Origin: Bacteroidetes bacterium GWF2_38_335
GTDB lineage: Bacteria > Bacteroidota > Bacteroidia > Bacteroidales > GWF2-38-335
Assembly: GCA_001769535.1 (NCBI GenBank)
Contig: MEOH01000012.1
Location: forward strand, 1-64,000
Direction of reading: 5' to 3'
Length of the DNA: 64,000 nt
Shown: piece after piece, positions 4,449 to 60,227 of the stretch
Layout: each line of letters starts with the position of its first letter
Numbering within the stretch: position 1 is the stretch's first letter
The notes under the pieces: generated by a model
The model's input: only the letters and a program-made list of their open reading frames with translations
Database searches by the model: none
Told to the model about the DNA's origin: nothing
Made by a program: the position numbers and the translations under genes

Positions 4449-4476
4449 ACCGGCAACAGCTATCCCAAGTCGCGCT

Positions 4477-4500
4477 ATCCCAAGTCTCCAGACTTGGGAT
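4477..4500. repeat. Perfect 11-bp inverted repeat (ATCCCAAGTCT CC AGACTTGGGAT)
   Basis: A perfect hairpin with an 11-bp stem and CC loop lies 29 bases after the permease stop. A partial direct copy (ctatcccaagtc) precedes it at 4459-4470. It has no T-run, so it is more like an interspersed palindrome than a strong terminator. A similar AAGTC..GACTT palindrome occurs at 16406-16428. Confidence 0.6.
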
Positions 4501-4577
4501 TGAGATTAGTATTACATCTCCATACTTTAAAAATCAGGCTTATTCACATTTTTTAACCATCACAAAAAGAACTTCTA

Positions 4578-4608
4578 TTGTCTTCTGAAAAGATTATTTG
4601 TATATTAG
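4578..4608 (+). promoter_or_regulatory. Probable promoter of ftsX operon
   Basis: TTG at 4578-4580, a 20-base spacer and TATATTAG at 4601-4608 match the Bacteroidota TTTG-N19/20-TAnnTTTG promoter with one mismatch in the -7 box. The ftsX ATG is at 4625, giving a leader of about 10 bases. Confidence 0.45.
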
Positions 4609-4624
4609 CGCCCTGATTAATAAT

Positions 4625-5515
4625 ATGGCAGGAAAAGAAGAAAAATACACACGCCGCCGTTTACGCAGTTCCTACATCACCACCGTGATAAGCATTTCAT
4701 TGGTGTTGTTTATGCTTGGACTGATGAGTTTTCTCATTTTAAATACACGCAATCTTTCCAATTATGTGAAAGAAAACATTGGTTTTTCCATTTATCTCAA
4801 CGATGAAGTAAAGGAAGTGGATATTGTCAGGATACAAAAAATCATTGATGCATCCGATTTTGCAAAGGAAAGTAAGGTGGTAACCAAAGATGAGGCAGCA
4901 AAACAATGGCTCGAGGAAACAGGTGAGGATTTTTATGATGTGCTTGATTTTAATCCCCTTCCCGGATCCATTGACGTGAAACTTAAAGCAGAATATGCCA
5001 ACCTCGACAGCATTGAGGTTATTAAAAAGCAGTTGTATGCTTATGATCAGGGAAAAAATCAGATCAGGGAAATTGACTATCAGGAAGATCTCATCGCAAA
5101 TGTGCAGAATAATGTGAATAAAATCTCATTGTTCATTTTGGCTTTCAGCGCACTTTTGTTCATTATTTCCTTTGCATTGATCAATAACACCATCAGGTTG
5201 TCGGTATATTCAAAACGATTTAATATCAAAACCATGAAACTGGTGGGTGCTACCAGGGGTTTCATACGCCGGCCTTTCATTTTCAACGGAGTGTTGCAGG
5301 GCGTTTACAGTGCAATGATTGCCATATTATTACTTTCTGCTGTTATTTATTATCTGCATGAAGAATTTAAGGAAATTATCAGTCTGGAACAACTCGACAT
5401 AATCGGATTGCTTTTCCTTATGGTACTGGTAATGGGTGTTTTGATCACCTGGATCTCGACCTATTTCTCGGTAAACAAATATCTGAATATCAAAGAAGAC
5501 AAATTATATTTCTAA
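4625..5515 (+). CDS. ftsX: Cell-division protein FtsX
   Basis: A 296-residue permease-like protein of the divisome that, with the ATPase FtsE, regulates peptidoglycan hydrolysis at the septum. It has an N-terminal cytoplasmic segment with RRRLRSSYITTVISISLVLF leading into helix 1. The extracellular domain has NIGFSIYLNDEV and LPGSIDVKLK. Three C-terminal helices follow, with the conserved KTMKLVGATRGFIRRPF. The ATG at 4625 gives the usual MAGKEEKY start; an upstream ATG at 4598 would lie inside the promoter. ftsE is not adjacent, as is common in Bacteroidota. Downstream genes are closely packed. Confidence 0.93.
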   Translation: MAGKEEKYTRRRLRSSYITTVISISLVLFMLGLMSFLILNTRNLSNYVKENIGFSIYLNDEVKEVDIVRIQKIIDASDFAKESKVVTKDEAAKQWLEETGEDFYDVLDFNPLPGSIDVKLKAEYANLDSIEVIKKQLYAYDQGKNQIREIDYQEDLIANVQNNVNKISLFILAFSALLFIISFALINNTIRLSVYSKRFNIKTMKLVGATRGFIRRPFIFNGVLQGVYSAMIAILLLSAVIYYLHEEFKEIISLEQLDIIGLLFLMVLVMGVLITWISTYFSVNKYLNIKEDKLYF

Positions 5516-9585: not shown

Positions 9586-11079
9586 CTAGTGTTCCATGTC
9601 CCGCTCAATAATTTCCACCAATTTATCAATGGCTTCCATAATATTCAGGTTTTTTAAAACTTCTTCGCTACCCTTATAAAGATTTACTTTGCCGGGTTTT
9701 GAACCCACAAAACCGTAATCGGCGCCGGCCATTTCGCCCGGACCATTGACCACGCATCCCATTACCGCAATTTTTAATCCCTTTGCCTGTGGCAATCTTG
9801 CTTTGATTTGTCTGGTAAGCGCTCCCACATCATAACCCGAGCGGCTGCAGGTGGGACAGGATATGAATTCGGTGCCGGAAATCCGGATTTTCAGTGCCTG
9901 CAAAATTCCTAAAATAGTGCGGTCAACTTCCAGAGGTGAAAAGTTTTTGTTGCTGACCAGAAATGCCTCAACTTTTTGGTTTCTCAGGTCATTTGAAAGT
10001 TCACAGGCAGCTTTTATCTGAAAATCTGTCAGATTATCCTCAAAATATTCCTTTTTAAGTAATCCCTTTTGTTTTAGAAAATCATCCTTTTTCATTTTTC
10101 TGAAACCGGGTGAGGTTGATTCCAAAAGATAATCCGTTTCAGGGTCCAGTAACTCTGGTTTGCCTGATTGGTTAGAAATGATAAAGGGTTTGTTTACCAA
10201 AAGATAGTTTGTTTCAGCCGGCACCTTCAACTGCTTTGAGTATTCAAGGATTTTGGCTGCAACTGGAATTTCATTTTCGGGCGGTTCGCTCAACGAAACC
10301 CTGATGGTATCACCTATTCCGGCCGCCAGCAAACAACTGATTCCGGCCGCCGACCTGATCCTGCCATCCGCGCCTTCTCCGGCTTCCGTTACCCCCAAAT
10401 GCTGCGGATAAACATACCTGCTTTGCTCCATGGCTTTTTGAAGCATAATTCCGGCCTCTGTCATGGTATTCACGCTGCTGGCTTTCATGGAAAGGACCAG
10501 ATTGTAGAATCCCTCTCGCTCACAAATACGCACAAACTCCATGGCTGCCTCAACCATTCCGGCCGCCGTATTACCATATCGTTCAACAATACGCCCCGAA
10601 AGCGATCCGTGGTTTGAACCAATGCGAATCACCGTTCCGTATTCTCTGCAGACCTTCAGCAGCGGCAATATCCTTTCATGGATTTTTTCTATTTCCAGAT
10701 TGTATTCCGAATCTGAAATGGCTTTTTTCAGAACCCTTTTTTCGGTATAATTGCCCGGATTGATCCTTATCTTTTCAACAATGCGGGCTGCCTCCAGAGC
10801 GATTTCGGGATTGAAATGGATGTCGGCGATCAGGGGTTTCCCGTAACCAGATTTATGTAATTCTTTTTTGATGAGGGCTAAACTTTCACAATCCTTCATC
10901 GTTGGCACCGAGATGCGCACATAATCGGCACCGGCATCAAAAATCCGGATACTTTGCGCAACGGTTGCCTTAACATCTCCGGTGGGTGTATTGGTCATAG
11001 ACTGCAGGCGTATCGGGTTGGATGAGCCCAAAGGCACATCTCCGATTTTTATTTCGGTACTTTTTCGTGTTGCAGTCAC
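9586..11079 (-). CDS. ispG: (E)-4-hydroxy-3-methylbut-2-enyl-diphosphate synthase IspG (GcpE)
   Basis: A 497-residue enzyme of the MEP isoprenoid pathway that reductively opens MEcPP to HMBPP using a 4Fe-4S cluster. The TIM-barrel part (about 1-270) starts with LGSSNPIRLQSMTNTPTGDV. The cluster domain has ISCPTCSRSG (Cys408, Cys411) and GCVVNGPGE (Cys442 and the catalytic Glu). Between them, at about residues 275-390, is an insert of roughly 110 residues. E. coli-type IspG has none, and most Bacteroidota and plant enzymes have a much larger one, so this is an intermediate form. The gene stands alone, with repeats upstream. Confidence 0.95.
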   Translation of the reverse strand: MTATRKSTEIKIGDVPLGSSNPIRLQSMTNTPTGDVKATVAQSIRIFDAGADYVRISVPTMKDCESLALIKKELHKSGYGKPLIADIHFNPEIALEAARIVEKIRINPGNYTEKRVLKKAISDSEYNLEIEKIHERILPLLKVCREYGTVIRIGSNHGSLSGRIVERYGNTAAGMVEAAMEFVRICEREGFYNLVLSMKASSVNTMTEAGIMLQKAMEQSRYVYPQHLGVTEAGEGADGRIRSAAGISCLLAAGIGDTIRVSLSEPPENEIPVAAKILEYSKQLKVPAETNYLLVNKPFIISNQSGKPELLDPETDYLLESTSPGFRKMKKDDFLKQKGLLKKEYFEDNLTDFQIKAACELSNDLRNQKVEAFLVSNKNFSPLEVDRTILGILQALKIRISGTEFISCPTCSRSGYDVGALTRQIKARLPQAKGLKIAVMGCVVNGPGEMAGADYGFVGSKPGKVNLYKGSEEVLKNLNIMEAIDKLVEIIERDMEH

Positions 11080-44464: not shown

Positions 44465-44657
44465 TATTAATTTGTTTAAATTACAAGTGTAATGACTTAA
44501 AAACTAATCGGTTTAATCACGTACTTTTAATCTTACAGACTTTAAATCAGAATGATACAAAACAATATATTTTAATATGAAGATATCTATATATGTTGAA
44601 AAACATATAATAAAATATATTTTCAAAAATTTGTATATTTACATCCAACCTAAAACA

Positions 44658-45935
44658 ATGAATATGAAAACATTTTTAATCTTTTTTGCACTATTTATGG
44701 CTATTAATGCTGTATCTCAGACCTGCTGGACAAAGTATATAGACAATCCCGTTATGGAAAAAGGTCCTGAACTGTGGGACATTATCGCTATTGGTCAGCC
44801 AACAGTGCTTTTTGAGGAAGATACCATTAAAATGTGGTATGTTGGTGTTGGCAGCGACATGAAAGGCAGGATTTGTTTTGCTTATTCAATAAACGGAACA
44901 GATTGGTTCAAGCATTTTGAGCCGGTTATTGATGTTGGAGGTTCAGCCGAATGGGATTGCGGATGGCTCGACACACCTGAGATTGTAAGGGACAGTTCGG
45001 GTTACAAATTATATTATTATGGCGATACGGCGCAACAGTTTGCAGGAATCAGTTCCTCCATTGGAATGGCATTTTCAGCAGATGGAATCCATTGGATTAA
45101 GCATCCCGCGAATCCGGTTTTTACAAAAGGGGAACCCGGAGAGTGGGACTGTACCTGGGTGGAATCGCCTGCACTTGAATACAACGGTATTTCAGGTGAG
45201 TATTACATGTGGTATAACGGAGTAGATACTTCAACGTGGAAACTTCAGATTGGTCTTGCTACCTCGACCAATGGAGTTGATTGGGAGCGTTACGCCATGA
45301 ACCCGGTTGTTGAAAACGGTTTTTGGGGAACTTATGATGACATTTGGATCGGGACACCGGCAGTTATTAAATATGACTCTGAGTATTACATGTGGTATTC
45401 TTCCACATCAACTAACAGTTACAATGGAGTTACAGAGCAATTTGACACAATAAATATTTGTTTTGCTTACTCAACAGATGGAATTAATTGGACCAAACAT
45501 GAAGACAATCCTTTATTCCACACTTTTACCCCGCCCTATGACTCTGTTATTGACAGCGGAGGTCCATGGGCTCCGGATGCAATTTACCATTCTTCCACAG
45601 AGCAGTTCATGATGTGGTATGAAACATTTGACGGGTTTTGTTTGGCTGTTGCGCCTGTAGATACTACATCAAATATTATTCAGCAGGAAGGAACACAATC
45701 AGAACTGATCATTTTTCCCAATCCGGCAAAAGATTATATTAATGTTTCAATAAAAAACCCTGAAGATAATTCGGTATTGACAATAACCAATAGTTTTGGC
45801 CAGGTAATCCGAAAAATTAACATGGATAATAAAAGCACTACCATATTTGATACTGGCAAACTGTCTCCAGGTATTTATTATCTAGGTTTGAAGGGCAATA
45901 AAACAGTTATTGTCAGAAAAATTCTGGTTGAGTAA
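44658..45935 (+). CDS. T9SS-secreted five-bladed β-propeller protein (GH43/GH32-like)
   Basis: A 425-residue exported protein with signal peptide ending AVSQ. Repeated blade motifs occur: IKMWYVGVG, ICFAYSINGTDWFKH, IGMAFSADGIHWIKHPANPV, IGLATSTNGVDWERYAMNPV and ICFAYSTDGINWTKHEDNPL. This is the pattern of predicted glycoside hydrolases with a GH43/GH32/DUF377-type propeller. Catalytic Asp and Glu residues cannot be assigned. The last 75 residues (LIIFPNPAKDYINVS ... LSPGIYYLGLKG) are a type A sorting domain. ATG 44658 is chosen over 44577 because it gives a signal peptide. Confidence 0.88.
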   Translation: MNMKTFLIFFALFMAINAVSQTCWTKYIDNPVMEKGPELWDIIAIGQPTVLFEEDTIKMWYVGVGSDMKGRICFAYSINGTDWFKHFEPVIDVGGSAEWDCGWLDTPEIVRDSSGYKLYYYGDTAQQFAGISSSIGMAFSADGIHWIKHPANPVFTKGEPGEWDCTWVESPALEYNGISGEYYMWYNGVDTSTWKLQIGLATSTNGVDWERYAMNPVVENGFWGTYDDIWIGTPAVIKYDSEYYMWYSSTSTNSYNGVTEQFDTINICFAYSTDGINWTKHEDNPLFHTFTPPYDSVIDSGGPWAPDAIYHSSTEQFMMWYETFDGFCLAVAPVDTTSNIIQQEGTQSELIIFPNPAKDYINVSIKNPEDNSVLTITNSFGQVIRKINMDNKSTTIFDTGKLSPGIYYLGLKGNKTVIVRKILVE

Positions 45936-47769: not shown

Positions 47770-48495
47770 ATGGAAATTTACATTGCTGCAGCTGTGGTTA
47801 TTGTTGCTTTTCTTTATTCGTCTATCGGACATGGTGGCGCCAGTGGTTATATCGCCGTGATGGCCCTGTTCAGCGTCCCTGCTTTTTACATCAAACCTTC
47901 GGCGCTGATATTGAATCTTTTTGTGGCCGGAATTGCATTTTTGATGTTTTACCGTGCCGGATATTTTAAATTGAAAAAACTGCTGCCTTTTGCCATTACC
48001 TCCATTCCCTTTGCATTTTTAGGCGGTTTGATGGAAATTAATGCGCATGTTTACAAAATAATATTGGGCGTTTTTCTGCTTGTTGCTATCAGCAGAATGT
48101 TTTTTATTCCCAAAGAAAAACTCAGCATTTCCGACAATCCGCCTTTTACAGTTGCTCTTTTTATTGGTGCCGGATTGGGTTTTATTTCCGGACTAATTGG
48201 AATTGGAGGGGGCATTTTACTTTCACCCATCCTGATTGTTTTTGGCTGGGCTACCCTGAAAGAAGCTGCCGCCGTATCTGCCGTATTTATTTTTCTGAAC
48301 TCGGCTTCGGGTTTAGGCGGGTTGATTGTTAACGGAATAGATATTCACAGCAGTCTTTATTTGTTTATTTTTGCCGGAATGATAGGCGCCCTTGCCGGAA
48401 GTTACGAAGGAAGTTTCAAATTTAACACGGTCCAGTTGCGCTCTGTCTTGGCAATTGTATTAATTTTGGCTTGTTTTAAATTGTTTTTTAATTAG
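47770..48495 (+). CDS. TauE/SafE family sulfite/anion exporter
   Basis: A protein of about 241 residues with seven or eight membrane helices. SSIGHGGASGYIAVMALF near the start and FISGLIGIGGGILLSPILIV in the second half are the two inverted TauE/SafE repeats. Members export sulfite, sulfoacetate or related anions. Sulfite is a product of thiosulfate reduction, so the nearby operon makes that substrate plausible. ATG 47770 is preferred to 47701, which would place the start inside the leader hairpin. Confidence 0.88.
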   Translation: MEIYIAAAVVIVAFLYSSIGHGGASGYIAVMALFSVPAFYIKPSALILNLFVAGIAFLMFYRAGYFKLKKLLPFAITSIPFAFLGGLMEINAHVYKIILGVFLLVAISRMFFIPKEKLSISDNPPFTVALFIGAGLGFISGLIGIGGGILLSPILIVFGWATLKEAAAVSAVFIFLNSASGLGGLIVNGIDIHSSLYLFIFAGMIGALAGSYEGSFKFNTVQLRSVLAIVLILACFKLFFN

Positions 48496-48506
48496 AAACT
48501 GGCTTC

Positions 48507-49037
48507 ATGATTTCAAACCAGGTTGAATATAAAAACATACTATTGGTATCGGGCACCGGACGAAATGTGGGCAAAACCACTTTCGTGAGATCGGTTATAA
48601 GAAATTTCAGCAAGCACGGAATTGTTGCCGTAAAAATTACCCCGCATTTTCATAACGGGGATCCCGGTGAAATTCTCCTTCAAAATGAAAAGTTCATTAT
48701 TGCCCGCGAACACAGGACGGAAACTGGAAAGGACAGCTCAAAATTTCTTGATGAAGGTGCCGAAAAGGTTTACTTTATTCAGGTTTTGGACAATCATTTG
48801 CCGGAAGCTTTCTTTGAATTTTTGAAAATTGAAAAGGAAAATCCCTTAATGGTGATTGAATCGGGCGGATTAAGAAATGTTTTAATTCCCGGTATTTTTT
48901 GTCTCATAACCGATGGAAAAGGCAATAAAAACAACCATTTCACAGAAATGGCTGATATGCTTGTTGTCAATGAAAAAAAGCAAAATATTGATCTGAAAGG
49001 AATTTTGGTTAAAAGCGGCACCTGGATTAAAGAATAA
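48507..49037 (+). CDS. MobB-like P-loop GTPase/ATPase
   Basis: A 176-residue protein with P-loop VSGTGRNVGKTTF (GTGRNVGKTT at residues 16-25) followed by AVKITPHFHNGDPGE. This resembles MobB (molybdopterin-guanine dinucleotide synthesis, where HFHN-type His residues follow) and also dethiobiotin-synthetase-type ATPases. ESGGLRNVLIPGIF later in the chain fits a switch region. It starts 11 bases after the TauE gene. A role in molybdenum cofactor handling is plausible, but the family assignment is tentative. Confidence 0.65.
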   Translation: MISNQVEYKNILLVSGTGRNVGKTTFVRSVIRNFSKHGIVAVKITPHFHNGDPGEILLQNEKFIIAREHRTETGKDSSKFLDEGAEKVYFIQVLDNHLPEAFFEFLKIEKENPLMVIESGGLRNVLIPGIFCLITDGKGNKNNHFTEMADMLVVNEKKQNIDLKGILVKSGTWIKE

Positions 49038-49087
49038 AGCCGGTAGTTTATTAAAATGACCGACATTAAAAGAGGTTACTATTCTGG

Positions 49088-49582
49088 TTAAAAATTGAAA
49101 ATTTTCTGCAGAACAGTTTTGTTACCCGTATTTATTTGTGAATTGAAACTTAAATTTTGTAGCGGTATCTTGTTTGGAAATTTTGAAAAGAGCTGCAAAT
49201 CAACATACACGAAAACATCATAAAAATCTTTGTTGTTACTGATAAAGGAGTTGTAATCGATACTGTCTACATCGGCAATTAAATAGCCAAATTCGCTTTC
49301 GGGATATTGGTCAATTTCGATTAAAACCTTTTGTCCGACCTCAACAATTCGTATTACTTCCGGGGGTACTTTTAAAACAAATTTGGCTGTATTGTTCTGG
49401 TAAAAAACTTCGGACTCAACAGTTAGATAATCAGGCTGCCTTAAAAACCCTGCACAGATGAACAGTGTTAAGAGCACAATAAAAATGGCTGCAATTCCAA
49501 ATCTTATTACTATGGGGGGAATTTTTCCGATGATGTCTCTAACATCCTTGCTTCGAAGTTCTATTTGATTTTTTGCTTCCAT
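49088..49582 (-). CDS. Short HlyD-like adaptor of a RiPP exporter
   Basis: A 164-residue membrane protein with one helix (about 26-47) after a basic start, then a short β-rich part (YLTVESEVFYQNNTAKFVLK). Normal HlyD/membrane-fusion proteins are about 350-450 residues and contain a lipoyl hairpin and coiled coil. Here the coiled coil is missing and the sequence goes straight to the β-barrel-like end. It follows the C39-ABC gene by 2 bases, so it is the adaptor candidate. Whether it is a compact functional form or a decayed gene is open; the intact frame favours the former. Confidence 0.75.
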   Translation of the reverse strand: MEAKNQIELRSKDVRDIIGKIPPIVIRFGIAAIFIVLLTLFICAGFLRQPDYLTVESEVFYQNNTAKFVLKVPPEVIRIVEVGQKVLIEIDQYPESEFGYLIADVDSIDYNSFISNNKDFYDVFVYVDLQLFSKFPNKIPLQNLSFNSQINTGNKTVLQKIFNF

Positions 49583-49584
49583 GT

Positions 49585-51780
49585 TTAATCTACCTCCAGT
49601 TGGTTTTTAACAAGAGAATAGTATTTGCCCTTGAGATTAATTAATGATTTATGGTTTCCCTGTTCAACAATTTCACCATTTTCCAGCACAACAATGCTGT
49701 CGGCATTCTTAACGGTACTAAGCCGGTGAGCAATAATGAAGACGGTTTTATTTTGAAAAAAAGCATCCATATTTTGCACTATTATTTTTTCACTGTTGGT
49801 ATCCAATGAATTTGTTGCCTCATCGAAGAACACAAAATCGGGGTTTTTGTAAATGGCCCTTGCAATTAGGATTCTTTGTTTTTGACCTTGACTCAAACCA
49901 CTTCCGCTGTCGCCAATAACTGTATTATACTTTAATGGAAGCGACATAATAAAATCATGAATATTTGCCATTTCGGCTGAGTATTGCAGTTGACTCTTGT
50001 CGATTTCTTCCACTCCAACACAGATGTTTTTAGCAATAGTATCGGCAAAAATAACCCCGTCCTGAAGTACCGCTCCAAGTTTCTCGCGCCATAGTCTCGT
50101 GCTGATATTTTCCAGTGCAGTATTGTTAACAAGTATTTCTCCCGACGTAGGCGGGTAAAATCCCAACAGGAGTTTCATCAGGGTTGTTTTTCCGCTGCCA
50201 CTTGCTCCAACAACAGCGGTAACAGAATTCTTTTTGATATCAAGGTTAATATTTTTCAATACCAAAGGAGAATAAGGGCCTTCATATTGAAAACTTAGAT
50301 TTTTTATATTAATGTCATTGGTTGCAAATGCGTCATTTTCAAAAATTTTACTATTGGTGTCTTCTGGTTTTTTGGTGTGAACTTCAGCCAATCTTGACAA
50401 ACTAAGCCGGGCATCCTGTAAGCTGTTAAAGAAAACAATAAGCTGTTCGATGGGACTGTTAAGTTGTCCGATGATGTATTGAATAGAAAGCATCATGCCC
50501 AGAGTAATTTCGCCATTAATTACGGCTGTTGCCGAAATAATGGAAATAAGCATGTTCATTATGCCATTAACAAATTTTGCTCCTGAGCTTTGCCATTGAG
50601 ACAGAGAAAGCTGTTTGATGTTTATTCTAAATACTTTTGCCTGAACATCTTCCCATTCCCATCTTTTTTGTTGTTCGGCATTATGCAGTTTAATTTCCTG
50701 CATGTTGGTGATTAAACGATACAGTGCATTTTGGTTTTCTGCTGCCTGGCCAAATCTTTTAATATCGATTTGCTTTCTTTTTTTCATAAAAAGCAGAATC
50801 CACAACACATATAAAAAAGCACCAAGATAAAATACCAACAGGATTTTCAGACTAAAAATGCCAAGGACAATGGAAAAAACAATAATATTTAGGGCAGAAA
50901 ACAAAATGCTCAAAGTGCTGCTTGTTAGAAATGATTCGATTCTTGAATGATCGTCAACTCTTTGTTTAAGGTCGCCGGTCATTTTTGTTTCGAAATAGCT
51001 CATCGGCAATTTCATGAGCTTAATAAGGAAATCGGATATAAGGGAAATGTTTACCCTTGTACTGATGTGGAGCAAAATCCAGGAACGGATTATTTCCACA
51101 AATGAGCTACTGAAAAACAATACCAATTGGGCAAGAAGGACTAAATAAACGAAAGAAATATCGGCTTTTTTTACCCCAACATCCACCAGGTTTTGCATCA
51201 GGAAAGGAAAAGCCAGTTGCAACAAAGTTCCGGTCAGCAGTCCGATAAAAAGTTGAAGCATCAATTTTCTATAGGGCCTGAGGTAGGAAAGAAGGAAATT
51301 TATGTCCGATTTCGGCTTTCGTTGACCCTCATCCGCTTTTTCATAAAATGCTGGCAGGGGTTGTAAAATAAGACACACTCCTTTTCTTTCGTTGTTGTCA
51401 ACGGTTGTTGCCCAGCCGTTGGTGAATTCCTCACTGCTGATTTTGTATTTTCCAATTGCAGGATCAGAAACCCACACATATTTCGAAGTAATTTTATATA
51501 CAACTATAAAATGATGTTGTTTCCAATATGCAATAAACGGAGTTGGATTTTCTTTTAACAATCTTTGATAGGATGTTGTTACTCCAAGGGTTTTAAAACC
51601 AATAGACTCGGCGGCATGGCTAAGTCCCTTTAAAGAAATTCCTTTGCGGGTATAAAAACTTTTTTCTATTAAAGTATTCAGCGTATACTTTTTCCCATAA
51701 AATTCTGCAATTATTTTTAAACAAGCCGGACCGCAGTCCATGGCATCATATTGATTAAAGAATGGAAAGCTTTTAAACAT
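49585..51780 (-). CDS. C39 peptidase-containing ABC exporter (PCAT)
   Basis: A 731-residue exporter. The N-terminal C39 protease domain has FNQYDAMDCGPACLKII (catalytic Cys16), His90 in WKQHHFIVVYK and Asp106 in VSDPAIG. Six transmembrane helices follow (about 160-430), then a nucleotide-binding domain with Walker A VVGASGSGKTTL, signature GLSQGQKQR and Walker B FVFFDEATNSLD. These proteins cleave the leader after a double-Gly-type site and export the core peptide. The gene is 3 bases from the TonB-type barrel gene. Confidence 0.95.
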   Translation of the reverse strand: MFKSFPFFNQYDAMDCGPACLKIIAEFYGKKYTLNTLIEKSFYTRKGISLKGLSHAAESIGFKTLGVTTSYQRLLKENPTPFIAYWKQHHFIVVYKITSKYVWVSDPAIGKYKISSEEFTNGWATTVDNNERKGVCLILQPLPAFYEKADEGQRKPKSDINFLLSYLRPYRKLMLQLFIGLLTGTLLQLAFPFLMQNLVDVGVKKADISFVYLVLLAQLVLFFSSSFVEIIRSWILLHISTRVNISLISDFLIKLMKLPMSYFETKMTGDLKQRVDDHSRIESFLTSSTLSILFSALNIIVFSIVLGIFSLKILLVFYLGAFLYVLWILLFMKKRKQIDIKRFGQAAENQNALYRLITNMQEIKLHNAEQQKRWEWEDVQAKVFRINIKQLSLSQWQSSGAKFVNGIMNMLISIISATAVINGEITLGMMLSIQYIIGQLNSPIEQLIVFFNSLQDARLSLSRLAEVHTKKPEDTNSKIFENDAFATNDINIKNLSFQYEGPYSPLVLKNINLDIKKNSVTAVVGASGSGKTTLMKLLLGFYPPTSGEILVNNTALENISTRLWREKLGAVLQDGVIFADTIAKNICVGVEEIDKSQLQYSAEMANIHDFIMSLPLKYNTVIGDSGSGLSQGQKQRILIARAIYKNPDFVFFDEATNSLDTNSEKIIVQNMDAFFQNKTVFIIAHRLSTVKNADSIVVLENGEIVEQGNHKSLINLKGKYYSLVKNQLEVD

Positions 51781-51783
51781 CTC

Positions 51784-54210
51784 TTAAATTTTTATGTCTT
51801 TTGATCCACGGTCGCCTTCTTTAAACATATAATAAATGTAAATCCTGAAATATCTTTTATAATAGGTGTAATCATAAATCAAATCGGTATTCACACCCAT
51901 ATAATCATAAGTTGATTTCTTATCAAATAAGCCATATAAAACATTTTCTATATTAAAATTGATAAACAGCTTATCATTGAAAAATCTTTTGGAGGCTGCC
52001 CAATGAAGGTGAAAATAGGGATGGGTCCAGCCCGAAAAGGTAACCTCTTTTGAGTCATAATTAAACCAAAAACTCATCCCGATTGTTTTTTTATTGAAAT
52101 AATTGAACGATAATTTGCTGTTGTAACCAAACTGTTTTCTGATAATGTTTAGGGAATAATTGTTGAGCATCCCGGCAAGGTTTTGTAAGTCGCCACTTTC
52201 AAAATATGTATGCACTATGTTTGTGCTGAATGAGATTTTATACAACCTGTTGATTTGATACCATAGAGAGATATCTGCTCCAATCTTTTGGTTTGTTGAA
52301 AGGTTATAAGGCATTGTAAGAAAAGTGCTCTGATCTATTGGAAAGTTTACTTTTGAAATGCCGTTGTGTGTAGTCTTAAAAAACAGTTCTGTTGAAATAT
52401 TGAAGGAATCTTTTATAAACCGGTGCCTGAAATATGCATTGTGATAATATTCGGGCTTTAAATCATTGTTTCCGCTATACCAGTTAATGGGATTTTGTTT
52501 GTCGACAAAAGACAGGTAATCTTCAGGGTCACCGGGCTGATTTGTATAATTATAACCCAAATAAAAATCATTTATTTTGTTTAAACTATATGTTATTCTG
52601 GCCGATGGAATTATTGACGAGTAGGTTTTATAAACATTTATACTGGTGTCATTTGTTCCCACATACCGAACAAAATCTCCGGTAATTTTATTGTATTTAT
52701 AATCAATAGTTCCCTGTAAACTCAGTTTCTTTAATTTTCTGCTGATGTTTATGCCAATTTTTGAATTTGACTGTTCCTTGGCAGCTCCTCTGTAGAATGA
52801 CAAGAGCTCCTCATCGTTCAATAAATATTGAAAAGAGTTTTCAGGATAATTATGAGAAAAATGCGTTCCATGGATATTTAATCCCCATTTATGGTTAAAA
52901 GGGTGATTGTAATAGAATTCATATAAAGTTGTACTGGATTTAGCTTTTTCGACCACCGAATAATTATAAATTGAGTCGGCATATAAACCGGCAGTATCAT
53001 TCGACATGTTTACATTTGTTTTTGAATCTGAGTGCCCGGATAAGCGCGCATTGGTGTAGGTAAATGAAAACTCACGGTCGTTTTTAAAACTTTGTGTTAT
53101 TTTTCCAAGATAGTAATGACTGTTGGCGTTTCTTTCGTTAAGCGAATTAAATTTATTACTAAAGGAAATAAGTTGACCGGATATTGATTGGTCGATGGTA
53201 TTGGATTGTTCCTGGGCATAATCCTGAAACCCATAGGCAATAAGAATCTTCGTTGTTTCGCCGGGAATATAAATGCCGGAGTAATTGGTTAAATCATGGT
53301 TTTCTGATGACAATCCTGTTTTGGAATTTTTGATGAAAGACTCGTCTTCCATATTGATGGTTCCATTTTCATCCACATGGTTTTTTTCCCTTGTATTATT
53401 GAGACTCAAATTATTAAATAACAGAAAGGGACCCAGCAGGTAATTCAGATTGAGAAATGTTTCATCCTTGTATAACTGTTTGTCCTTGGGAGTGTAAGAA
53501 TAATCTCCGGATATATAAGCGCTAAAAGTGGCAGGTTTTTTTGTTTTCAGTTTAATATTGATAATTCCACCCTGACCGCTTCCTCCAAACAAGGCTGATC
53601 GGTCAATTAATTCAACAGAAGCTATATCCTCCACTGAAATCATTTCAAGCTTGGGATATAAATATGCAGAGGGCATATTATCAACTAAAACTTCAGGTGA
53701 CCCACCCTTAAACCTGATGGTCTTGGTCGATTCATCAACAACAACTCCGGGCATGGTTTTTAGGATATCATAAATATCCATAACATTTTTGGTTTTTTCT
53801 TCGGTAATATTGTAAACCTCCCTGTCGAACTTTTTTATTACAATATTGCTGTCGGCTTTAACAACCACTTCGGGAATGGAATTGGCATCCTGCACCAGAC
53901 TGAAATTATATTGATTAACTGCATCTGGAAATTCATTCAGGTTGAATTCTTTAACCTTATAGCCTAAGTGGCTGAACCGGATTACGCCCTCCTGGTTTTC
54001 ATTGTAGGTAATTGAAAAATATGCATTTTCATTTGAATAGCCGTATCTGACTATTGAATCTTTCTTATTGTGTATGGAAATATTTGAATAAGGAAGGATT
54101 TCTTTTGTAAGACTATCCATAACAGTTCCTTTAATTGTTCTTGACTGACCATAGGATTCAGCTTGAGAAAAAGCCATAAGAATCAGTAAGATGAGATATA
54201 TTGATTTCAT
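51784..54210 (-). CDS. Outer-membrane β-barrel of TonB-dependent receptor type (PF14905-like)
   Basis: An 808-residue exported protein. After the signal peptide (ending ESYGQ) a carboxypeptidase-regulatory-like domain (TIKGTVMDSLTKEILPYSNI, about 23-100) precedes a plug-like region (about 130-215: MPGVVVDESTKTIRFKGG, RSALFGGSGQGGIINIKLK). The rest is barrel, ending in an aromatic-rich terminal strand (YFRIYIYYMF). Such barrels normally import ligands, but its place between the maturase and the exporter of a RiPP cluster suggests export, immunity or re-import of the product. This is inference. Confidence 0.88.
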   Translation of the reverse strand: MKSIYLILLILMAFSQAESYGQSRTIKGTVMDSLTKEILPYSNISIHNKKDSIVRYGYSNENAYFSITYNENQEGVIRFSHLGYKVKEFNLNEFPDAVNQYNFSLVQDANSIPEVVVKADSNIVIKKFDREVYNITEEKTKNVMDIYDILKTMPGVVVDESTKTIRFKGGSPEVLVDNMPSAYLYPKLEMISVEDIASVELIDRSALFGGSGQGGIINIKLKTKKPATFSAYISGDYSYTPKDKQLYKDETFLNLNYLLGPFLLFNNLSLNNTREKNHVDENGTINMEDESFIKNSKTGLSSENHDLTNYSGIYIPGETTKILIAYGFQDYAQEQSNTIDQSISGQLISFSNKFNSLNERNANSHYYLGKITQSFKNDREFSFTYTNARLSGHSDSKTNVNMSNDTAGLYADSIYNYSVVEKAKSSTTLYEFYYNHPFNHKWGLNIHGTHFSHNYPENSFQYLLNDEELLSFYRGAAKEQSNSKIGINISRKLKKLSLQGTIDYKYNKITGDFVRYVGTNDTSINVYKTYSSIIPSARITYSLNKINDFYLGYNYTNQPGDPEDYLSFVDKQNPINWYSGNNDLKPEYYHNAYFRHRFIKDSFNISTELFFKTTHNGISKVNFPIDQSTFLTMPYNLSTNQKIGADISLWYQINRLYKISFSTNIVHTYFESGDLQNLAGMLNNYSLNIIRKQFGYNSKLSFNYFNKKTIGMSFWFNYDSKEVTFSGWTHPYFHLHWAASKRFFNDKLFINFNIENVLYGLFDKKSTYDYMGVNTDLIYDYTYYKRYFRIYIYYMFKEGDRGSKDIKI

Positions 54211-54216
54211 AAATAT

Positions 54217-55527
54217 CTAAGACTTTTTTATTCTTGAATACTCATAATCTTTGATAATACTTGTCTCCATGGGAATTTCCGTATATTTCAGAACGCAGCT
54301 TTCCTGCCCGCCTCTTTCAATAATGTTTTGCGAACAAGATCCCCCGCACATGGGCAGGTAGATGCAATCAGGACATATCGTATTTTCGACAGTTAATTTA
54401 CAAAATCTTTTTGCCTGAATACCAGCTTTTAATTGAACTGACCCGTCATCTTTTAATGTGCCGACAACGTAATCATCTGTATATCCTTTAGCCGTGCATT
54501 TATAAACTTTTCCTTCATGGTCTATTTCAAGGTGGTAGTATTTATCCACATAACATCCATAATGCCTGTGCGGCTGAAGTTTGGAAAAAGCCACCGAAAA
54601 ACCTTCTTTTGCTGCATACTCCAGCCAATGAAGCAGTTCTGTGTTGCTTTCTGAGGGAGCAGAACAATCGGGCTTGATGGTTTGCCACACTCTTTGAAAA
54701 TCTATTCGGATATTTTTCCTGATTTCTATGGGGAAAATCGTTAGAAATTCAGGGTTGTGGTTTAAGGTTTTATCATCGTAATTGATCCTGAGAATAATAT
54801 TAACCTCAGGATTTTCTGTACATAAGTCGATTATATTACCGCAGATTTTATCGAAGGTGGGTTTTCCCTGGTGCCGTCTTACTTTATCGTGCTTCTCTTT
54901 ATTTCCGTCGAGGGTTATCTGAAAACTGGACATTTCTATTTCCTTCAAATCCTTAATCATGCTTTTATTAATATAATAACCGTTTGTGGTTATGGTATTC
55001 CGGAATGTCAAACCTTTGCTCTTCATTAATTGCTGTCCGTATTTTGAGATGGGTCTGACTATCTCATTGAAATACATCAAAGGCTCACCTCCAAACCATG
55101 ACAAATGTAATCCGGAAATTTTATTTGACATGTAATTTATGTGGTTAATTATCTTTTCATAGGTTTTTTCATCCACCATGCCCTTTGGATGCTCCTCATA
55201 ACAATACCAGCAATTGAAATTGCAATCCAGCGTAGGATGAAGAAAAAGCCAGTATTCTCGATCTAAAAATACTGATTCTCTTTTGTTGAACATGACTTCT
55301 TCCTGCTCGTTTCTTTTTGCATCTATAATAAAGCCTGACTTATAAAACTTATGGAAAATATTGGGAAATTTCTTTTCAAATTCATCCAGATTCCTGAGTT
55401 CGTTTTGAACTGTTTCATGCTCGTTTTTATTCAATCCAACTTTGGCTCCGGTAAAAGTGTTAAAATATATGTGCTTATCCGAATTATTTACAATAATATT
55501 GTATTTGCTTGTTTTGTGTGCAGTCAT
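54217..55527 (-). CDS. Radical SAM/SPASM peptide maturase
   Basis: A 436-residue enzyme. The radical SAM cluster motif is CNFNCWYCYE (Cys102, Cys106, Cys109), followed by SWFGGEPLMYFNEI and TTNGYYINKSM. The C-terminal SPASM region has KCTAKGYTDDYVVGTL, then CPDCIYLPMCGGSCSQN, giving auxiliary Fe-S ligands. The first 90 residues do not match the radical SAM core and may bind the precursor leader. SPASM maturases install thioether or C-C crosslinks in peptides. It lies 68 bases after the precursor gene, with a terminator between. Confidence 0.93.
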   Translation of the reverse strand: MTAHKTSKYNIIVNNSDKHIYFNTFTGAKVGLNKNEHETVQNELRNLDEFEKKFPNIFHKFYKSGFIIDAKRNEQEEVMFNKRESVFLDREYWLFLHPTLDCNFNCWYCYEEHPKGMVDEKTYEKIINHINYMSNKISGLHLSWFGGEPLMYFNEIVRPISKYGQQLMKSKGLTFRNTITTNGYYINKSMIKDLKEIEMSSFQITLDGNKEKHDKVRRHQGKPTFDKICGNIIDLCTENPEVNIILRINYDDKTLNHNPEFLTIFPIEIRKNIRIDFQRVWQTIKPDCSAPSESNTELLHWLEYAAKEGFSVAFSKLQPHRHYGCYVDKYYHLEIDHEGKVYKCTAKGYTDDYVVGTLKDDGSVQLKAGIQAKRFCKLTVENTICPDCIYLPMCGGSCSQNIIERGGQESCVLKYTEIPMETSIIKDYEYSRIKKS

Positions 55528-55551
55528 ATTTAAAAATACATTATAAAAATT

Positions 55552-55586
55552 ATATTAAAAAAACAAAACCGGAGATAATCTCCGGT
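55552..55586 (-). terminator. Intrinsic terminator between precursor and maturase
   Basis: On the minus strand ACCGGAG ATTAT CTCCGGT is followed by TTTTGTTTTTTT. It lies 9 bases past the precursor stop and before the maturase start. If it is leaky, most transcripts end after the precursor gene, giving more peptide than enzyme. Confidence 0.75.
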
Positions 55587-55595
55587 CTGTCTCCA

Positions 55596-55817
55596 TTATT
55601 TGGTGGGATCAGGTACTGTTGTACAGCCCAGCCATCCTTTTACTTTGCAGTCATCGCCACAGAATAATTTGATGCATACACCATTGTAAGTTTCACATGT
55701 GTTTGTGCAATCACTGTTGTTTGAACCTGCATAAGTTTCCATCATTTGGAAATCGTCAAGTAATTCATCGGAAAAAATTTCCAATTCCTTTTCATTAAAA
55801 CTGATTGTTGTTTTCAT
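55596..55817 (-). CDS. Six-Cys RiPP precursor peptide
   Basis: A 73-residue peptide. The leader (about 1-31) is acidic and helical (EKELEIFSDELLDDFQMMET) and ends in YAG, a C39-type cleavage site variant. The core (about 32-73) has six Cys at 37, 41, 48, 53, 57 and 65 and ends TTVPDPTK. It resembles no precursor that I know. Its adjacency to a radical SAM/SPASM enzyme and a C39 exporter makes it a very likely substrate. Cys spacing suggests several thioether or disulfide links. It differs from the clostridial six-Cys (SCIFF) family in sequence. Confidence 0.85.
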   Translation of the reverse strand: MKTTISFNEKELEIFSDELLDDFQMMETYAGSNNSDCTNTCETYNGVCIKLFCGDDCKVKGWLGCTTVPDPTK

Positions 55818-56308
55818 TTAAATAAAATTTGATTAGACAATAAATGACACTAATATTTTACAATAATAAAACATTTTTTGTAATAAATAATAACATTTTG
55901 TAAAATACATTAAATACCCTAAGTAGTAGATGGTATATGTTTATATGTTAAGTTTTGATTTAGAGCAAATTCAAATTTCGAACTAATTTGGCAGGCATAA
56001 TTATAGTTAAAAGCCGTCGATATTTCATATTTTCCCAATTAATTCTTATTTTTGTTAAATCAGTGAGACTATAATTTCAGGAACGATAGTGAACTGAAAT
56101 TGTTTAGTCGAACTGATCCCGAGGGAAGCCGAGGGATCTCTAAGGTTTTATTTGCTTCGCCGAACGCTTTCGCATTAAGCTTCAGCATTTGCGAAGCTCG
56201 TAAATTTATCTTAAGACTCGGTTCCTCGCCCCTTGGGGCGGATATATAATAAATCCTAAGTTGATACCCCGTTTGCTTGCAACGGGATAGTTCATTAAAG
56301 TTTAGCTT
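55818..56308. other. 490-base intergenic region with interspersed repeats
   Basis: The left part (55818-55950) is very AT-rich and should hold the RiPP promoter on the minus strand, but no clear -33/-7 pair stands out. The right part holds GATCCC...GGGATC (56115-56138), CCCCTTGGGG-type palindromes near 56230 and CCCGTT...AACGGG (56268-56286). No gene is supported. Confidence 0.5.
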
Positions 56309-58852
56309 ATGAAAAAATTAATAATATTCTCTGCAATAACAATCCTAAGTGGATTGCTTTGCATTTCAATAATTCCGGGCGTTACAAAAAAGTCAATGCC
56401 TAAACCTGCCAAAACAACGGTTCTTGAAAAAGATGAAGCCGGCGAAGAAAACGAACGGGATGCCCGGGAAAAATGGATTGAACAATTGCATAAAGCTGCT
56501 CCGGGTGTAAACTGGAGAATGATGGACTATGAAACACGGCTGGAAAAAGCCAAATACTACCAAAATAAAAACAGTGCTAAAAGCCAGATTGAGATTGCCG
56601 GCGGAGCACTTACCGGAAATTGGCGCGAAACAGGCAGCATGAATCAGGCAGGCAGAACGCATTTGGTTGAATACGACTACAATACCGATTCAATTTACTG
56701 CGCCAGCTCGGGAGGAAATATCTGGAAAGCTGATAAATCCGGCAATGGCTGGAGGTGCCTAAACAACTATTTTAAAATTCCGGATATCAATATGGTCCGG
56801 ATCATCGATCATAACAGTGGCAGACGATTGCTCGTTTCAAGCGGTGGCTGGGGCGTTCCGTCGTTCTATTACTCCGATGACGATGGCCTTTCATGGGCGC
56901 ATTCAAACGGACTAAATGAGATCTCCGACTGGGGTTGCTCACAGCGCACAATTGTGCTGAACGACGCCGACCGTACCGTTATAATGCTTGCCTTGCAGTG
57001 GGATTATGACAATTGGGAAAAAGAAACCAGTGTTTACGTTTCACAGGATCATGGCGAAACCTTCACCAAACACCACTCTTTCAGAGAATCGGTTTATGGA
57101 AGCGAGGGTGTTTTTGATATATGGACCGATAATGACGGCTCAGGAACAGCCTATTTTATCGAGAATGAAAACATATCAGTATTTGATGGCTCATTCAATC
57201 TGAATCCCATCGGCAGCATAACTCTTAGCGAGCCCGGCAGCATTCTTCTTACCGGATGCGAAACAGCAACTAAAACATATTTGTATGTTGGCGTTTATCA
57301 AAGCGAAAATATTGATTTTTACCAATCCCAGGATGCCGGTATTAGCTGGATGTCTATGGGGAATGTAGCATCCGGACCATTTTTCAAAACAAGTTTTTCC
57401 TGCTCACAGGTGTATCCTGAAACATTGTATTATGGAGGAATGGAATGTTATCGTTCTGCCAACGGAGGCGACACCTGGACAAAACTCAATGTTTGGTCAG
57501 ATTATTACGCAGATATCCTAAACAAACTTCACGCTGATATTCCGTCAATCAATTCCTTTGTTGATGATTATGGCGAAGAATTTGCTTATGTCAATACCGA
57601 CGGAGGAACTTATTTGTCACTGAATTCTCTGGAAACAGTACAAAATATTTCGCTCACAAACCATAATGTGGGACAGTTTTACTCGGTTTATTCACATCGC
57701 ACCGACCCATCGGTTATTTATGGAGGGACTCAGGATCAGGGGTATCAGTTATGCATTGCAAATGATGGAACCGGTTCAGAAAGTTTTGAGCAGATCATCA
57801 GTGGCGATTACGGGCATATTGTTTCTTCGGATGGCGGAAACTCCATCTGGATGGTGTATCCGGGTTTTGCCGCTTACTACCCCGAAGCAGTTACAAATCC
57901 ATATTTCAGCGATTGGTGGGATTTTCAATGTTCAGGCCAATTCTGGATTCCACCACTTATGGCTCATCCCGATAATCCAAATCAGGTGTATCTTGGAGGC
58001 GGTACCACCAGTTCGGGTACACACATGATTTTGCTCACATCCTTTTCGGGTTGGGTAACATACGAAGAAGATCCTTATGATTTCAGCGGGACTTCGGGTG
58101 CCACCGCAATTTCGGCCATGGCCTGCTCCCCGCTTAATGATGATTACCGTTATGTCATGAACGGCAACGGTGAGTTTTTTGCATCTACCGATGGAGGTAA
58201 CACCTGGACACTCACTTCCGGCTTCGACGGTCCCGACGGCAATTATCTGAACGGAGCAGTTATTATTCCCTCGCCCACCACGCTTGGCAGAGTGTATGTT
58301 GCCGGAAGCGGATATTCAAATCCTCCGGTGTACGTTTCAAACAACAATGGTACTTCCTTCAATTCCATGTCGGCCGGAATGCCATCTACAATGGTTTTTG
58401 AAATGGCAATAACCCCCGGTGAAGAGTTTATTTTTGCCGCCACCGAAGTCGGCCCGTATGTTTATGTCGTATCTGAAAATTACTGGTATGACCTTGGACA
58501 AGGCGTTGCTCCCGATCAAACATACTGGACCGTCGATTACAGTCCGGCTACCAAAATAGTCCGCTTCGCAACCTATGGCCGCGGAATATGGGATTTCAAT
58601 ATTGAATCAGGTATCACCGGAAATAAGGAAAAAACCATCGCAGGTCTGACAATTTATCCCAATCCGGCTACTGATTATATCACAGTTCAGGGTTGTAATA
58701 ACCAAAGTCTTGTGATTTATGATTTGAAAGGCCGCAAAAGGTTAGAAAAGGACATTCTGGGAGACAGGGTGAAAATAGATATTGAAAACCTGGAAACCGG
58801 AATATATATTGCAAAAGCAGGAAACCTTACACAAAAAATTATTGTTGAATAA
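56309..58852 (+). CDS. T9SS-secreted BNR/sortilin-like β-propeller protein
   Basis: An 847-residue exported protein with a signal peptide. Asp-box-type repeats are numerous: YYSDDDGLSWAHS, YVSQDHGETFTKH, YQSQDAGISWMSM, YRSANGGDTWTKL, FASTDGGNTWTLT and YVSNNNGTSFNSM. They indicate a sortilin/VPS10 or exo-α-sialidase-like propeller fold (a BNR-type, possibly two-propeller, protein). The last 80 residues (LTIYPNPATDYITVQG ... LETGIYIAKAG) are a type A sorting domain. Enzyme activity is not evident; surface or secreted glycan binding is possible. Confidence 0.9.
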   Translation: MKKLIIFSAITILSGLLCISIIPGVTKKSMPKPAKTTVLEKDEAGEENERDAREKWIEQLHKAAPGVNWRMMDYETRLEKAKYYQNKNSAKSQIEIAGGALTGNWRETGSMNQAGRTHLVEYDYNTDSIYCASSGGNIWKADKSGNGWRCLNNYFKIPDINMVRIIDHNSGRRLLVSSGGWGVPSFYYSDDDGLSWAHSNGLNEISDWGCSQRTIVLNDADRTVIMLALQWDYDNWEKETSVYVSQDHGETFTKHHSFRESVYGSEGVFDIWTDNDGSGTAYFIENENISVFDGSFNLNPIGSITLSEPGSILLTGCETATKTYLYVGVYQSENIDFYQSQDAGISWMSMGNVASGPFFKTSFSCSQVYPETLYYGGMECYRSANGGDTWTKLNVWSDYYADILNKLHADIPSINSFVDDYGEEFAYVNTDGGTYLSLNSLETVQNISLTNHNVGQFYSVYSHRTDPSVIYGGTQDQGYQLCIANDGTGSESFEQIISGDYGHIVSSDGGNSIWMVYPGFAAYYPEAVTNPYFSDWWDFQCSGQFWIPPLMAHPDNPNQVYLGGGTTSSGTHMILLTSFSGWVTYEEDPYDFSGTSGATAISAMACSPLNDDYRYVMNGNGEFFASTDGGNTWTLTSGFDGPDGNYLNGAVIIPSPTTLGRVYVAGSGYSNPPVYVSNNNGTSFNSMSAGMPSTMVFEMAITPGEEFIFAATEVGPYVYVVSENYWYDLGQGVAPDQTYWTVDYSPATKIVRFATYGRGIWDFNIESGITGNKEKTIAGLTIYPNPATDYITVQGCNNQSLVIYDLKGRKRLEKDILGDRVKIDIENLETGIYIAKAGNLTQKIIVE

Positions 58853-59000
58853 GTGAGTTTCAGCAATATTTAAGAATCATTCAAGTAAATTCCAATGATT
58901 TTTATTGGTGTAAATCGTGATTTCATAAAACAAATCAGGGTAAATCATTTTTCTTGTGTATTAGTTCATATTTTTGTTCAATCAATTAAAACCCATATCT

Positions 59001-60227
59001 ATGAAAAAAATTTTCGCATTTACACTGATTTTATTTTCACTTTCGGGAATAGCTCAGACCTATACCTCTTCGCAGGATGGCAACTGGACAAACCCCATGA
59101 CCTGGTCTCCAATGGGCGTGCCCCTTCCAGGCTCAACGGTAATCATTAATCACAATGTTATTCTGGATACCGATTTTGGATATTCATCAGGGAGCATTAC
59201 GGTTAATGCATCGGGAACCCTTGAGCAGAGTGCGGTTGGTAGAAACCTTTCGGTTGATGGCGGCGAACTGTACAATAATGGCGAAATCATCGTAACAAAT
59301 TTTGCCTTGTTTAGCGGCTATTTTTATAACAACAGTTTTTTTTCATCACATCTGATTTACCTGACCGATTCGGCCGACAATTCCGATAATGGTATTTTTT
59401 ACGACTGTGATAGTTTATACACAAACGTTTACTTATACAGTACAGGCGAAATCAATGCCGTGAAACTTTACAATGACGGATACTTCTTTAATGACGGATA
59501 TTTTTTCGGAACAGATTTTTGGAACAACAGTGAGTTTTATTCAAACAGTGGAGTGCTGGTGACAAATTTCACCAACGCCGGTTACATGGAAAACAATGGC
59601 GGATTTCAATTCCAGAACAGCACAAACCTTAGTGAACTAATCAACAGCGGAGATTATATAGGAAATTATTTTACCAACACCGGCAAGTTTTACAATTATA
59701 TGGTCACCGCTCTTACAATGGATTTTTTGAATGTGGACAGCACCGACCATGATGCTTTGCTGCACCTTGAAGGACCTTTTCTGATTACAAATGACATGCT
59801 GAATATTGACTCAATTACAGGAACCACCGACGGCAACATTTGTGTAGGCAACCTGTCTACCAACGCAGGTTTGTTTTTGGGCAACTTTGATTTCTGCGAC
59901 CAGACAGGCAGTGTGCCTGATGTGAATACAGGAACCATTGACGCCGGAATCACATATTGTACCAAATCATGTGAAGTTGGTGTGCCTGAAACAGTCGATA
60001 CCGGTACTCCGGTTTTATTCCCCAACCCATTCAGCACCCATCTGAAAATAAACAGTCAGGGATACGAAAATTTCAGTCTGTTTGATGCAGCAGGCAGGAT
60101 GATCGTTCACGTGGACATTACCCAGAGTGAAACGATTATCAGCACCGAATCACTGAAAGAAGGAGTATATTATTACTCATTAACCAACAAAAATTCGGAG
60201 GTCAGGGGAAAGGTGATTAAAAACTGA
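59001..60227 (+). CDS. T9SS-secreted protein with GNW-type N-terminal repeat domain
   Basis: A 408-residue exported protein with signal peptide ending GIAQ. The start of the mature chain, SQDGNWTNPMTWSPMGVPLP followed by GSTVIINHNVILD, is a phrase common in T9SS cargo with parallel β-helix folds. Repeated Asn-rich short motifs (YNNGEIIV, YNDGYFFNDGYFF, NNSEFYSNSG) fit a β-helix. The final part (VLFPNPFSTHLKINSQ ... LKEGVYYYSLTN) is a sorting domain. ATG 59001 is preferred over 58974. It is followed by a clear terminator. Confidence 0.85.
   Translation: MKKIFAFTLILFSLSGIAQTYTSSQDGNWTNPMTWSPMGVPLPGSTVIINHNVILDTDFGYSSGSITVNASGTLEQSAVGRNLSVDGGELYNNGEIIVTNFALFSGYFYNNSFFSSHLIYLTDSADNSDNGIFYDCDSLYTNVYLYSTGEINAVKLYNDGYFFNDGYFFGTDFWNNSEFYSNSGVLVTNFTNAGYMENNGGFQFQNSTNLSELINSGDYIGNYFTNTGKFYNYMVTALTMDFLNVDSTDHDALLHLEGPFLITNDMLNIDSITGTTDGNICVGNLSTNAGLFLGNFDFCDQTGSVPDVNTGTIDAGITYCTKSCEVGVPETVDTGTPVLFPNPFSTHLKINSQGYENFSLFDAAGRMIVHVDITQSETIISTESLKEGVYYYSLTNKNSEVRGKVIKN

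Follow-up and report, generated by a model that had tools for sequence, protein, structure and literature searches.

A Bacteroidales gene cluster for a putative cysteine-rich peptide, with a miniature HlyD-type adaptor beside its C39 exporter

We describe a compact gene cluster of Bacteroidetes bacterium GWF2_38_335 (order Bacteroidales), located in a stretch of 64,000 nucleotides (contig MEOH01000012.1, positions 1 to 64,000; hereafter the window). Five minus-strand genes within positions 49088-55817 very probably serve to make, modify and export a small Cys-rich peptide, i.e. they form a cluster of the type responsible for ribosomally synthesized and post-translationally modified peptides (RiPPs). 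The operon encodes, in this order, a precursor, a SPASM radical S-adenosylmethionine (SAM) protein, an OMP_b-brl_3 barrel, a C39 ATP-binding cassette (ABC) exporter and a short HlyD-like adaptor, with intergenic gaps of 68, 6, 3 and 2 bases from the precursor onward. A previous sequence-only reading had proposed this arrangement, and its positions, strand, gene order and spacing were reproduced for all five genes. The grouping of precursor, SPASM maturase and C39 exporter, also proposed there, is borne out both by domains and by relatives. Its further inference of a secreted, crosslinked product is treated here as a proposal.

We consider it likely that this is a RiPP operon belonging to an unnamed Bacteroidales family, in which the precursor is made in excess, its core is modified, the C39 protein exports the product to the periplasm, and the barrel is the best candidate for the exit. 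A cluster type of this general build is already known in Bacteroidales (PMC10352776). What is new, as far as the literature searched shows, is the group of maturases and precursors without a curated model, together with the recurrent miniature adaptor.

The precursor peptide and its maturase

The precursor gene (55596-55817; all features of the cluster given below lie on the minus strand) encodes 73 residues. The leader (residues 1-31; 55725..55817) ends with Tyr-Ala-Gly, and C39 cleavage is predicted after the Ala-Gly (residues 30-31). All six Cys lie downstream of this site, in a core of 42 residues (residues 32-73; 55596..55724 including the stop codon). The peptide matched no Pfam family, gave no credible match in NCBIfam (a single one, to a maturase model, at E 0.098) and did not match TIGR04149 (GG-Bacteroidales rSAM targets). 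The latter model, when run on the open reading frame (ORF) of locus L007 described below and on seven precursor candidates from elsewhere, produced one weak match (13.2 of 25 bits). No second copy of the precursor was found in its own genome.

The sequence-only reading had named the lack of a conserved precursor frame beside the maturase in relatives as one finding that would refute it. The frame is conserved in one same-genus relative (one other genome of the family was compared), where a homologue (L007, 7639-7851) lies upstream of the maturase gene. The two precursors align with a local score of 64, which none of 2000 shuffles reached (top shuffle, 54). The leader of the relative ends with MMEINGG and its core is VVCPKDCTIKLC, in which VCPKDCTIK is aligned with the segment FCGDDCKVK of the window core. 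A weaker likeness was observed to a candidate in locus L056 (TYNGVC is common to both; score 46, reached by 2 of 2000 shuffles).

Small peptides of this kind are a regular feature of the maturase loci. For 21 of 32 maturases, a Cys-rich leader ORF was present on the maturase strand no more than 900 bases upstream, and for one it was present on the opposite strand; when at least three extra Cys were demanded, the counts were 18 and 0. To count as a candidate, a small ORF had to contain a [GA]G leader end, and the part downstream of this end had to exceed the part before it by two Cys or more. The 32 maturases come from 31 loci (L053 was counted twice). The count omits loci truncated or broken close to a contig end (L010, L014, L057, L064, L065), one split maturase (L108), two duplicates (L107 and L050, the same places as L061 and L012), weak partial matches (L017-L019) and the class-level matches. 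Two of the loci were scored as misses for formal reasons: in L007 the listed ORF begins upstream of the likely start, and in L009 the candidates are more than 900 bases away. The candidate cores vary widely, and three or four copies occur in L054, L045 and L100. In L054, where the candidates stand beside an ABC homologue, the leader end MYAG|S resembles TYAG|S of the window.

The gap after a precursor gene is a usual site of a partial terminator keeping the precursor above the enzyme. The 68-base gap of the window contains a hairpin (55558..55588) with a 10-pair stem followed by the T tract TGTTTTTTTA; its fold z is -2.29, and 4 of 200 shuffles fold as well or better. It is a probable partial terminator, which would end most transcripts after the precursor gene and so hold the precursor in excess over the enzyme, with some read-through. 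Terminator-like sites showed no excess in the scan as a whole (7 found, 5.9 expected); neither did sigma-70 promoters (27 found, 30.7 expected), and no known RNA family reached its gathering score in positions 48000-57000. Upstream of the precursor, 491 bases without a likely gene separate it from a divergent gene at 56309. This AT-rich region contains a perfect 10-base inverted repeat (55854-55863, TATTTTACAA, and 55898-55907, TTGTAAAATA), which may be an operator or a product of chance.

The maturase (54217..55527; 436 residues) matched Radical_SAM of Pfam (E 1.1e-16) and, below the cut-off, SPASM (E 0.018; 15.7 bits against 21.5). The radical SAM motif CX3CX2C is complete (C102, C106, C109), and these residues, as well as the seven Cys of the SPASM region (325, 344, 385, 388, 394, 398 and 411; 54295..54555), are invariant among 30 aligned maturases, of which the 29 relatives are 22-34% identical to the window protein. 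The structure model (predicted local distance difference test, pLDDT, 89.8) aligns with CteB over the full length. It includes an N-terminal wing of strands followed by helices (residues 1-90; 55258..55527) that resembles a RiPP recognition element (RRE), with no RRE family matched in Pfam. This wing may grip the leader while the SAM radical modifies the Cys-rich core.

The nature of this modification is most likely the formation of Cys thioether crosslinks. CteB, which forms thioethers, is the top match of the maturase both by fold (5why/5wgg, E 1.6e-19) and by profile (E 1.7e-42). Cys is also frequent in the precursor candidates, which is weak evidence for thioethers, because the candidates were picked for Cys. 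The core sequence does not reveal the acceptors, since Thr, Asn, Asp or Glu is found (by eye) near every Cys. There is an appreciable, though clearly smaller, chance that the enzyme makes another change (a C-C or C-O crosslink, a cyclopropane or an epimer) and that disulfides between the six Cys arise once the peptide has been exported. TigE (8vpo) comes next after CteB among the matched enzymes, by fold and, at E 2.6e-28, by profile, and the formation of cyclopropanes by TigE counts against the thioether reading; TIGR04463 is likewise the second NCBIfam match. Moreover, the window core contains a K-V-K-G-W stretch and the core of the L007 relative also has K-W, a pattern that recalls Lys-Trp crosslinking enzymes. 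Disulfides have a precedent in the same order, as the bacteroidetocins, which are GG-leader peptides produced next to a C39-ABC protein, behave in gels in a way consistent with disulfides (PMC6671954). On the side of thioethers stands the first rank of CteB in both comparisons.

The maturase scored far under every curated NCBIfam cut-off among the matches listed (25 of 58 families), e.g. 81 of 425 bits for TIGR03974 (SCIFF) and 95.8 of 340 bits for NF047865 (PapB). Across the 30 family members, the lowest E-value to any NCBIfam family was 1.9e-68 (TIGR04334). The group therefore appears to be unnamed in NCBIfam, and membership of the maturase in a named equivalog was rejected on these scores. 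This agrees with the earlier remark that no family with such a leader and core was known in this phylum: no curated NCBIfam or Pfam family fits the precursor, and none of those listed in NCBIfam fits the maturase. Among the 393 genomes sampled from the order, 21, the window's own among them, contain related maturases (E up to 1e-35); in the class the count was 6 of 395 genomes, three of the six (own included) belonging to the order of the window. A separate search of genome contigs yielded 13 maturase loci. Three of these match weakly and only in part; the labels of the other ten are Bacteroidales, Bacteroides sp., Muribaculaceae, Prevotella and Tannerella.

The miniature adaptor and the C39-ABC exporter

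The adaptor gene (49088..49582) encodes 164 residues, in which alignments, a structure model (pLDDT 82.3; predicted template modelling score 0.67) and PDB and profile matches reveal an N-terminal motif, one membrane helix and a beta-barrel. Both the model and an alignment with three long adaptors (434-439 residues) indicate that the lipoyl halves and the alpha-hairpin stretch are absent. The short HlyD-like protein noticed earlier beside the exporter can thus be described more precisely as internally deleted, not chopped, and similar ones recur. We regard it as the cluster's most unusual component. The motif IELRSEKVRNIIGQIPP at the N-terminus is conserved across 22 aligned adaptor rows. An origin of the short gene by frameshift or misassembly was ruled out by the internal deletion and the 22 aligned loci.

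Standard models mostly overlook such proteins: with an E threshold of 0.01, one of the 22 miniature adaptors is identified as HlyD by Pfam and six are matched by TIGR01843, and the window adaptor covers only positions 314-408 of TIGR01843 (31 bits against a cut-off of 208.65). The profile comparison aligned it with HlyD of 7sgr (E 1.2e-6) and, at E 1e-7, with residues 353-466 of a HlyD-type chain 478 residues long. The structure search returned MacA (TM-score 0.45) and the HlyD of the HlyB/D complex 7sgr (TM-score 0.53), each at E 2.8e-4, and, further down, BesA (4.2e-3); non-adaptor folds score there as well (8ftm, E 9e-4), so that the fold match alone is modest. In the literature searched, at the level of titles and the beginnings of abstracts, no adaptor of a C39 exporter lacking both the lipoyl and the hairpin parts was described.

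The neighbouring exporter (49585..51780; 731 residues) carries Peptidase_C39 (PF03412, E 1.4e-34), ABC_membrane (PF00664) and ABC_tran (PF00005) in one chain and would, by analogy with its family, cut the precursor after Ala-Gly and pump the core across the inner membrane. Of 393 genomes of the order, 133 encode exporters of this kind (E up to 1e-150; 43-61% identity to the window exporter among the matches listed). A search with the adaptor, which picked up short as well as long forms, matched 110 of these 393 genomes. In 80 exporter loci fetched from the matches listed, the adaptor nearby was short in 10 cases, long in 61 and missing in 9; the ten include L143, where a frameshift has probably split a long adaptor, and L133, counted among the 61, is cut by a contig end. 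Adaptor lengths descend from about 440 residues through 335, 201-226 and 153-180 to 47-65 residues with one helix. Such one-helix proteins, which match the adaptor profile, occupy the adaptor position beside C39 exporters in L055 (about 9730-9873), L192 (9188-9385) and L157 (2327-2494). A 74-residue one-helix ORF in the same setting in L048 (8646-8870) does not match the profile.

The C39 exporters of Bacteroidales repeatedly have miniature adaptors as neighbours, for the most part within a single exporter clade. This was revealed by an exporter tree of 110 rows obtained by three sampling routes, constructed as a quick tree with support from the SH-aLRT (Shimodaira-Hasegawa-like approximate likelihood ratio test) and without bootstrap. 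One clade of 24 exporters (SH-aLRT 100) has 19 short, one mid-length, four missing and no long adaptors. Among the rows scored as missing, L061 has a miniature adaptor behind another ORF, and L048 has the one-helix ORF mentioned above. Short adaptors outside this clade (L102, L116, L182, L193) sit beside long ones in the tree. On supported branches, seven independent pairs differ in the adaptor trait, mid-length cases included (the test used 90 of the 110 rows, after exclusion of 17 without an adaptor and of L117, L143 and L133). The change in adaptor length therefore happened more than once; we infer its direction.

We think it improbable that the short adaptor is a decaying remnant, with export lost or taken over by another adaptor of the genome. 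Adaptors of many lengths do exist, down to one helix, and adaptor-like genes are present elsewhere in the genome (all of them away from the cluster and not exceeding the TIGR01843 cut-off). Decay is nevertheless difficult to reconcile with a protein whose both ends are kept, whose deletion is internal, whose frame is open and whose N-terminal motif shows conservation across 22 loci, nor does it fit the retention of the short form by an exporter clade. The retained parts, judged from alignment and model, suggest that it acts at the exporter in the inner membrane, on which the miniature adaptor may be seated via its N-terminal motif and membrane helix.

Several observations weigh against the overall reading given at the outset. 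In two of the three sampling routes, the presence of a maturase or of a short adaptor was the ground for choosing a locus. The window exporter lies outside the clade of 24 in the quick tree, where its nearest rows carry long adaptors; its placement is not firm, and a tree with the exporter inside the clade scores better (approximately unbiased test, p 0.714). A 59% identical exporter of the same genus adjoins an adaptor of the long type, cut by the contig end at 326 residues. Long adaptors also accompany a maturase and a barrel (L062, L064), and six TolC-family loci are present elsewhere in the genome, none of them at the cluster. Finally, the same-genus maturase (L007, 7995-8648) stops at 217 residues and its second half is unmatched there, so that this cluster, with its precursor intact, looks decayed or misassembled.

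Other arrangements were observed around the exporters. Five exporters of one clade (L165, L166, L171, L174, L180) have no adaptor that could be found; in L171, L174 and L180 they are followed instead by what we take to be a small SUI1-like and a larger ankyrin-like protein, the start of the small one being visible in L165. In L107 (the same place as L061), a 475-residue ORF (3919-5346), transposase-like by eye, intervenes between the exporter and its miniature adaptor; the reading frame of the exporter stops early, after 643 residues. A 119-residue ORF in the same position in L099 (817-1176) presumably resembles four-helix-bundle proteins.

The outer membrane barrel and the proposed exit of the peptide

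The barrel protein (51784..54210; 808 residues) matched OMP_b-brl_3 (PF14905, E 5.7e-27; 95.2 bits against a gathering score of 27), CarbopepD_reg_2 (PF13715) and Plug (PF07715). In the 80 fetched loci, a barrel was present near the exporter in 5 of 10 cases with a short adaptor, 7 of 61 with a long one and 2 of 9 without any (short versus the rest, Fisher p 0.012; the counts include weak matches in L173 and L182). A barrel at most 3.5 kb upstream, on the same strand, accompanies 19 of the 24 exporters of the short-adaptor clade and 5 of 61 long-adaptor exporters, and the raw counts of the tree rows associate the barrel with a reduced adaptor (p 2.5e-6). The tree-corrected pair test was uninformative on this association (7 pairs; mean 0.4 for, 0.1 against), the pairs hardly differing in the barrel, and the association may reflect shared descent.

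Mutations in the tip of HlyD abolish TolC binding and HlyA secretion (PMC3391258). Because HlyD needs its hairpin tip and none is present here, the miniature adaptor should be unable to dock TolC in the manner of HlyD, and the peptide would therefore be released into the periplasm. Any exit from the cell would then take a further step, and the barrel encoded in the same operon is the leading candidate to carry it out. A wider proposal, that Bacteroidota possess a two-step, TolC-independent route (a C39-ABC exporter with a hairpin-less adaptor, reduced in the extreme to a bare helix, delivering to the periplasm, and a dedicated TonB-type barrel leading outside), is put forward tentatively, as less likely than not.

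A competing role for the barrel has a fair probability, somewhat below even: it may be a TonB-type receptor that takes in the cell's own or a competitor's peptide, or serve in self-protection. Plug-bearing proteins of the TonB type are mostly uptake receptors, and the window protein has the plug domain; in addition, no obvious immunity gene was seen in the operon on inspection by eye. An exit port agrees better with the recurrence of similar barrels beside the exporter across loci with very different precursors, as expected of a shared transport part, and an export role of TonB-type proteins has been predicted for graspetides (PMC8939145).

Three proteins encoded on either side of the cluster (44577-45935, 56309-58852 and 58974-60227) have apparent C-terminal sorting tails. 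The second matches Por_Secre_tail and Sortilin/BNR of Pfam, and the tails of the other two were judged by eye.

Comparison with known systems

With the CteB/SCIFF ranthipeptide maturases (PDB 5WGG, TIGR03974), the window system shares the SPASM fold with an N-terminal wing and a Cys-rich precursor; it differs in the precursor itself, in the operon and in a maturase that stays far below the SCIFF cut-off (81 versus 425 bits). CefB (NF038107), TIGR04463 and Clo7bot (TIGR04334) gave near full-length maturase matches of 160-173 bits, with cut-offs of 525-600. The precursor and the maturase add a RiPP group without a curated NCBIfam model.

HlyD, the adaptor of type I secretion systems, has in common with the miniature adaptor a membrane helix, a beta-barrel domain and a gene beside the exporter, whereas its lipoyl and alpha-hairpin parts are absent from the 164-residue protein. 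BesA of Borrelia is an adaptor that keeps the lipoyl domain. Like the window protein, it has no hairpin (PMC4446572, PMC8277102), but it serves a pump of the resistance-nodulation-division (RND) type (PMC4446572), while the window adaptor, devoid of hairpin and lipoyl parts alike, stands beside a C39-ABC exporter. The miniature adaptor tests the view that adaptors bridge tip-to-tip to TolC, to which BesA is a noted challenge among RND adaptors (PMC4446572). HetC of Nostoc is a C39 exporter proposed to deliver its substrate to the periplasm (PMC10986499); it differs in that no adaptor gene lies near hetC and that it does not belong to a RiPP cluster with a maturase and a barrel.

The closest systems are found in the same order or phylum. 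The Bacteroidales biosynthetic gene clusters BGC1-9 (PMC10352776) share with the window the order, a radical SAM/SPASM enzyme, a C39-ABC protein and an outer membrane protein. For BGC6-9, that report gives an exporter and an outer membrane protein with no adaptor identified, and leaves the crossing of the outer membrane open, whereas the window cluster has a strongly reduced adaptor. The miniature adaptor, which standard models rarely detect (1 of 22 by Pfam), may be what earlier cluster surveys missed. The bacteroidetocins of Bacteroidetes (PMC6671954) likewise combine a GG-leader, a Cys-containing peptide and a C39-ABC exporter, with genes for a transmembrane protein and a thiol oxidoreductase where the window has the maturase and the barrel. 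Their outer membrane step is left open in that paper, even lysis being kept possible. In the cluster described here, an adaptor without the parts that bridge the exporter to the outer membrane turns the exit route of such peptides into a testable question.

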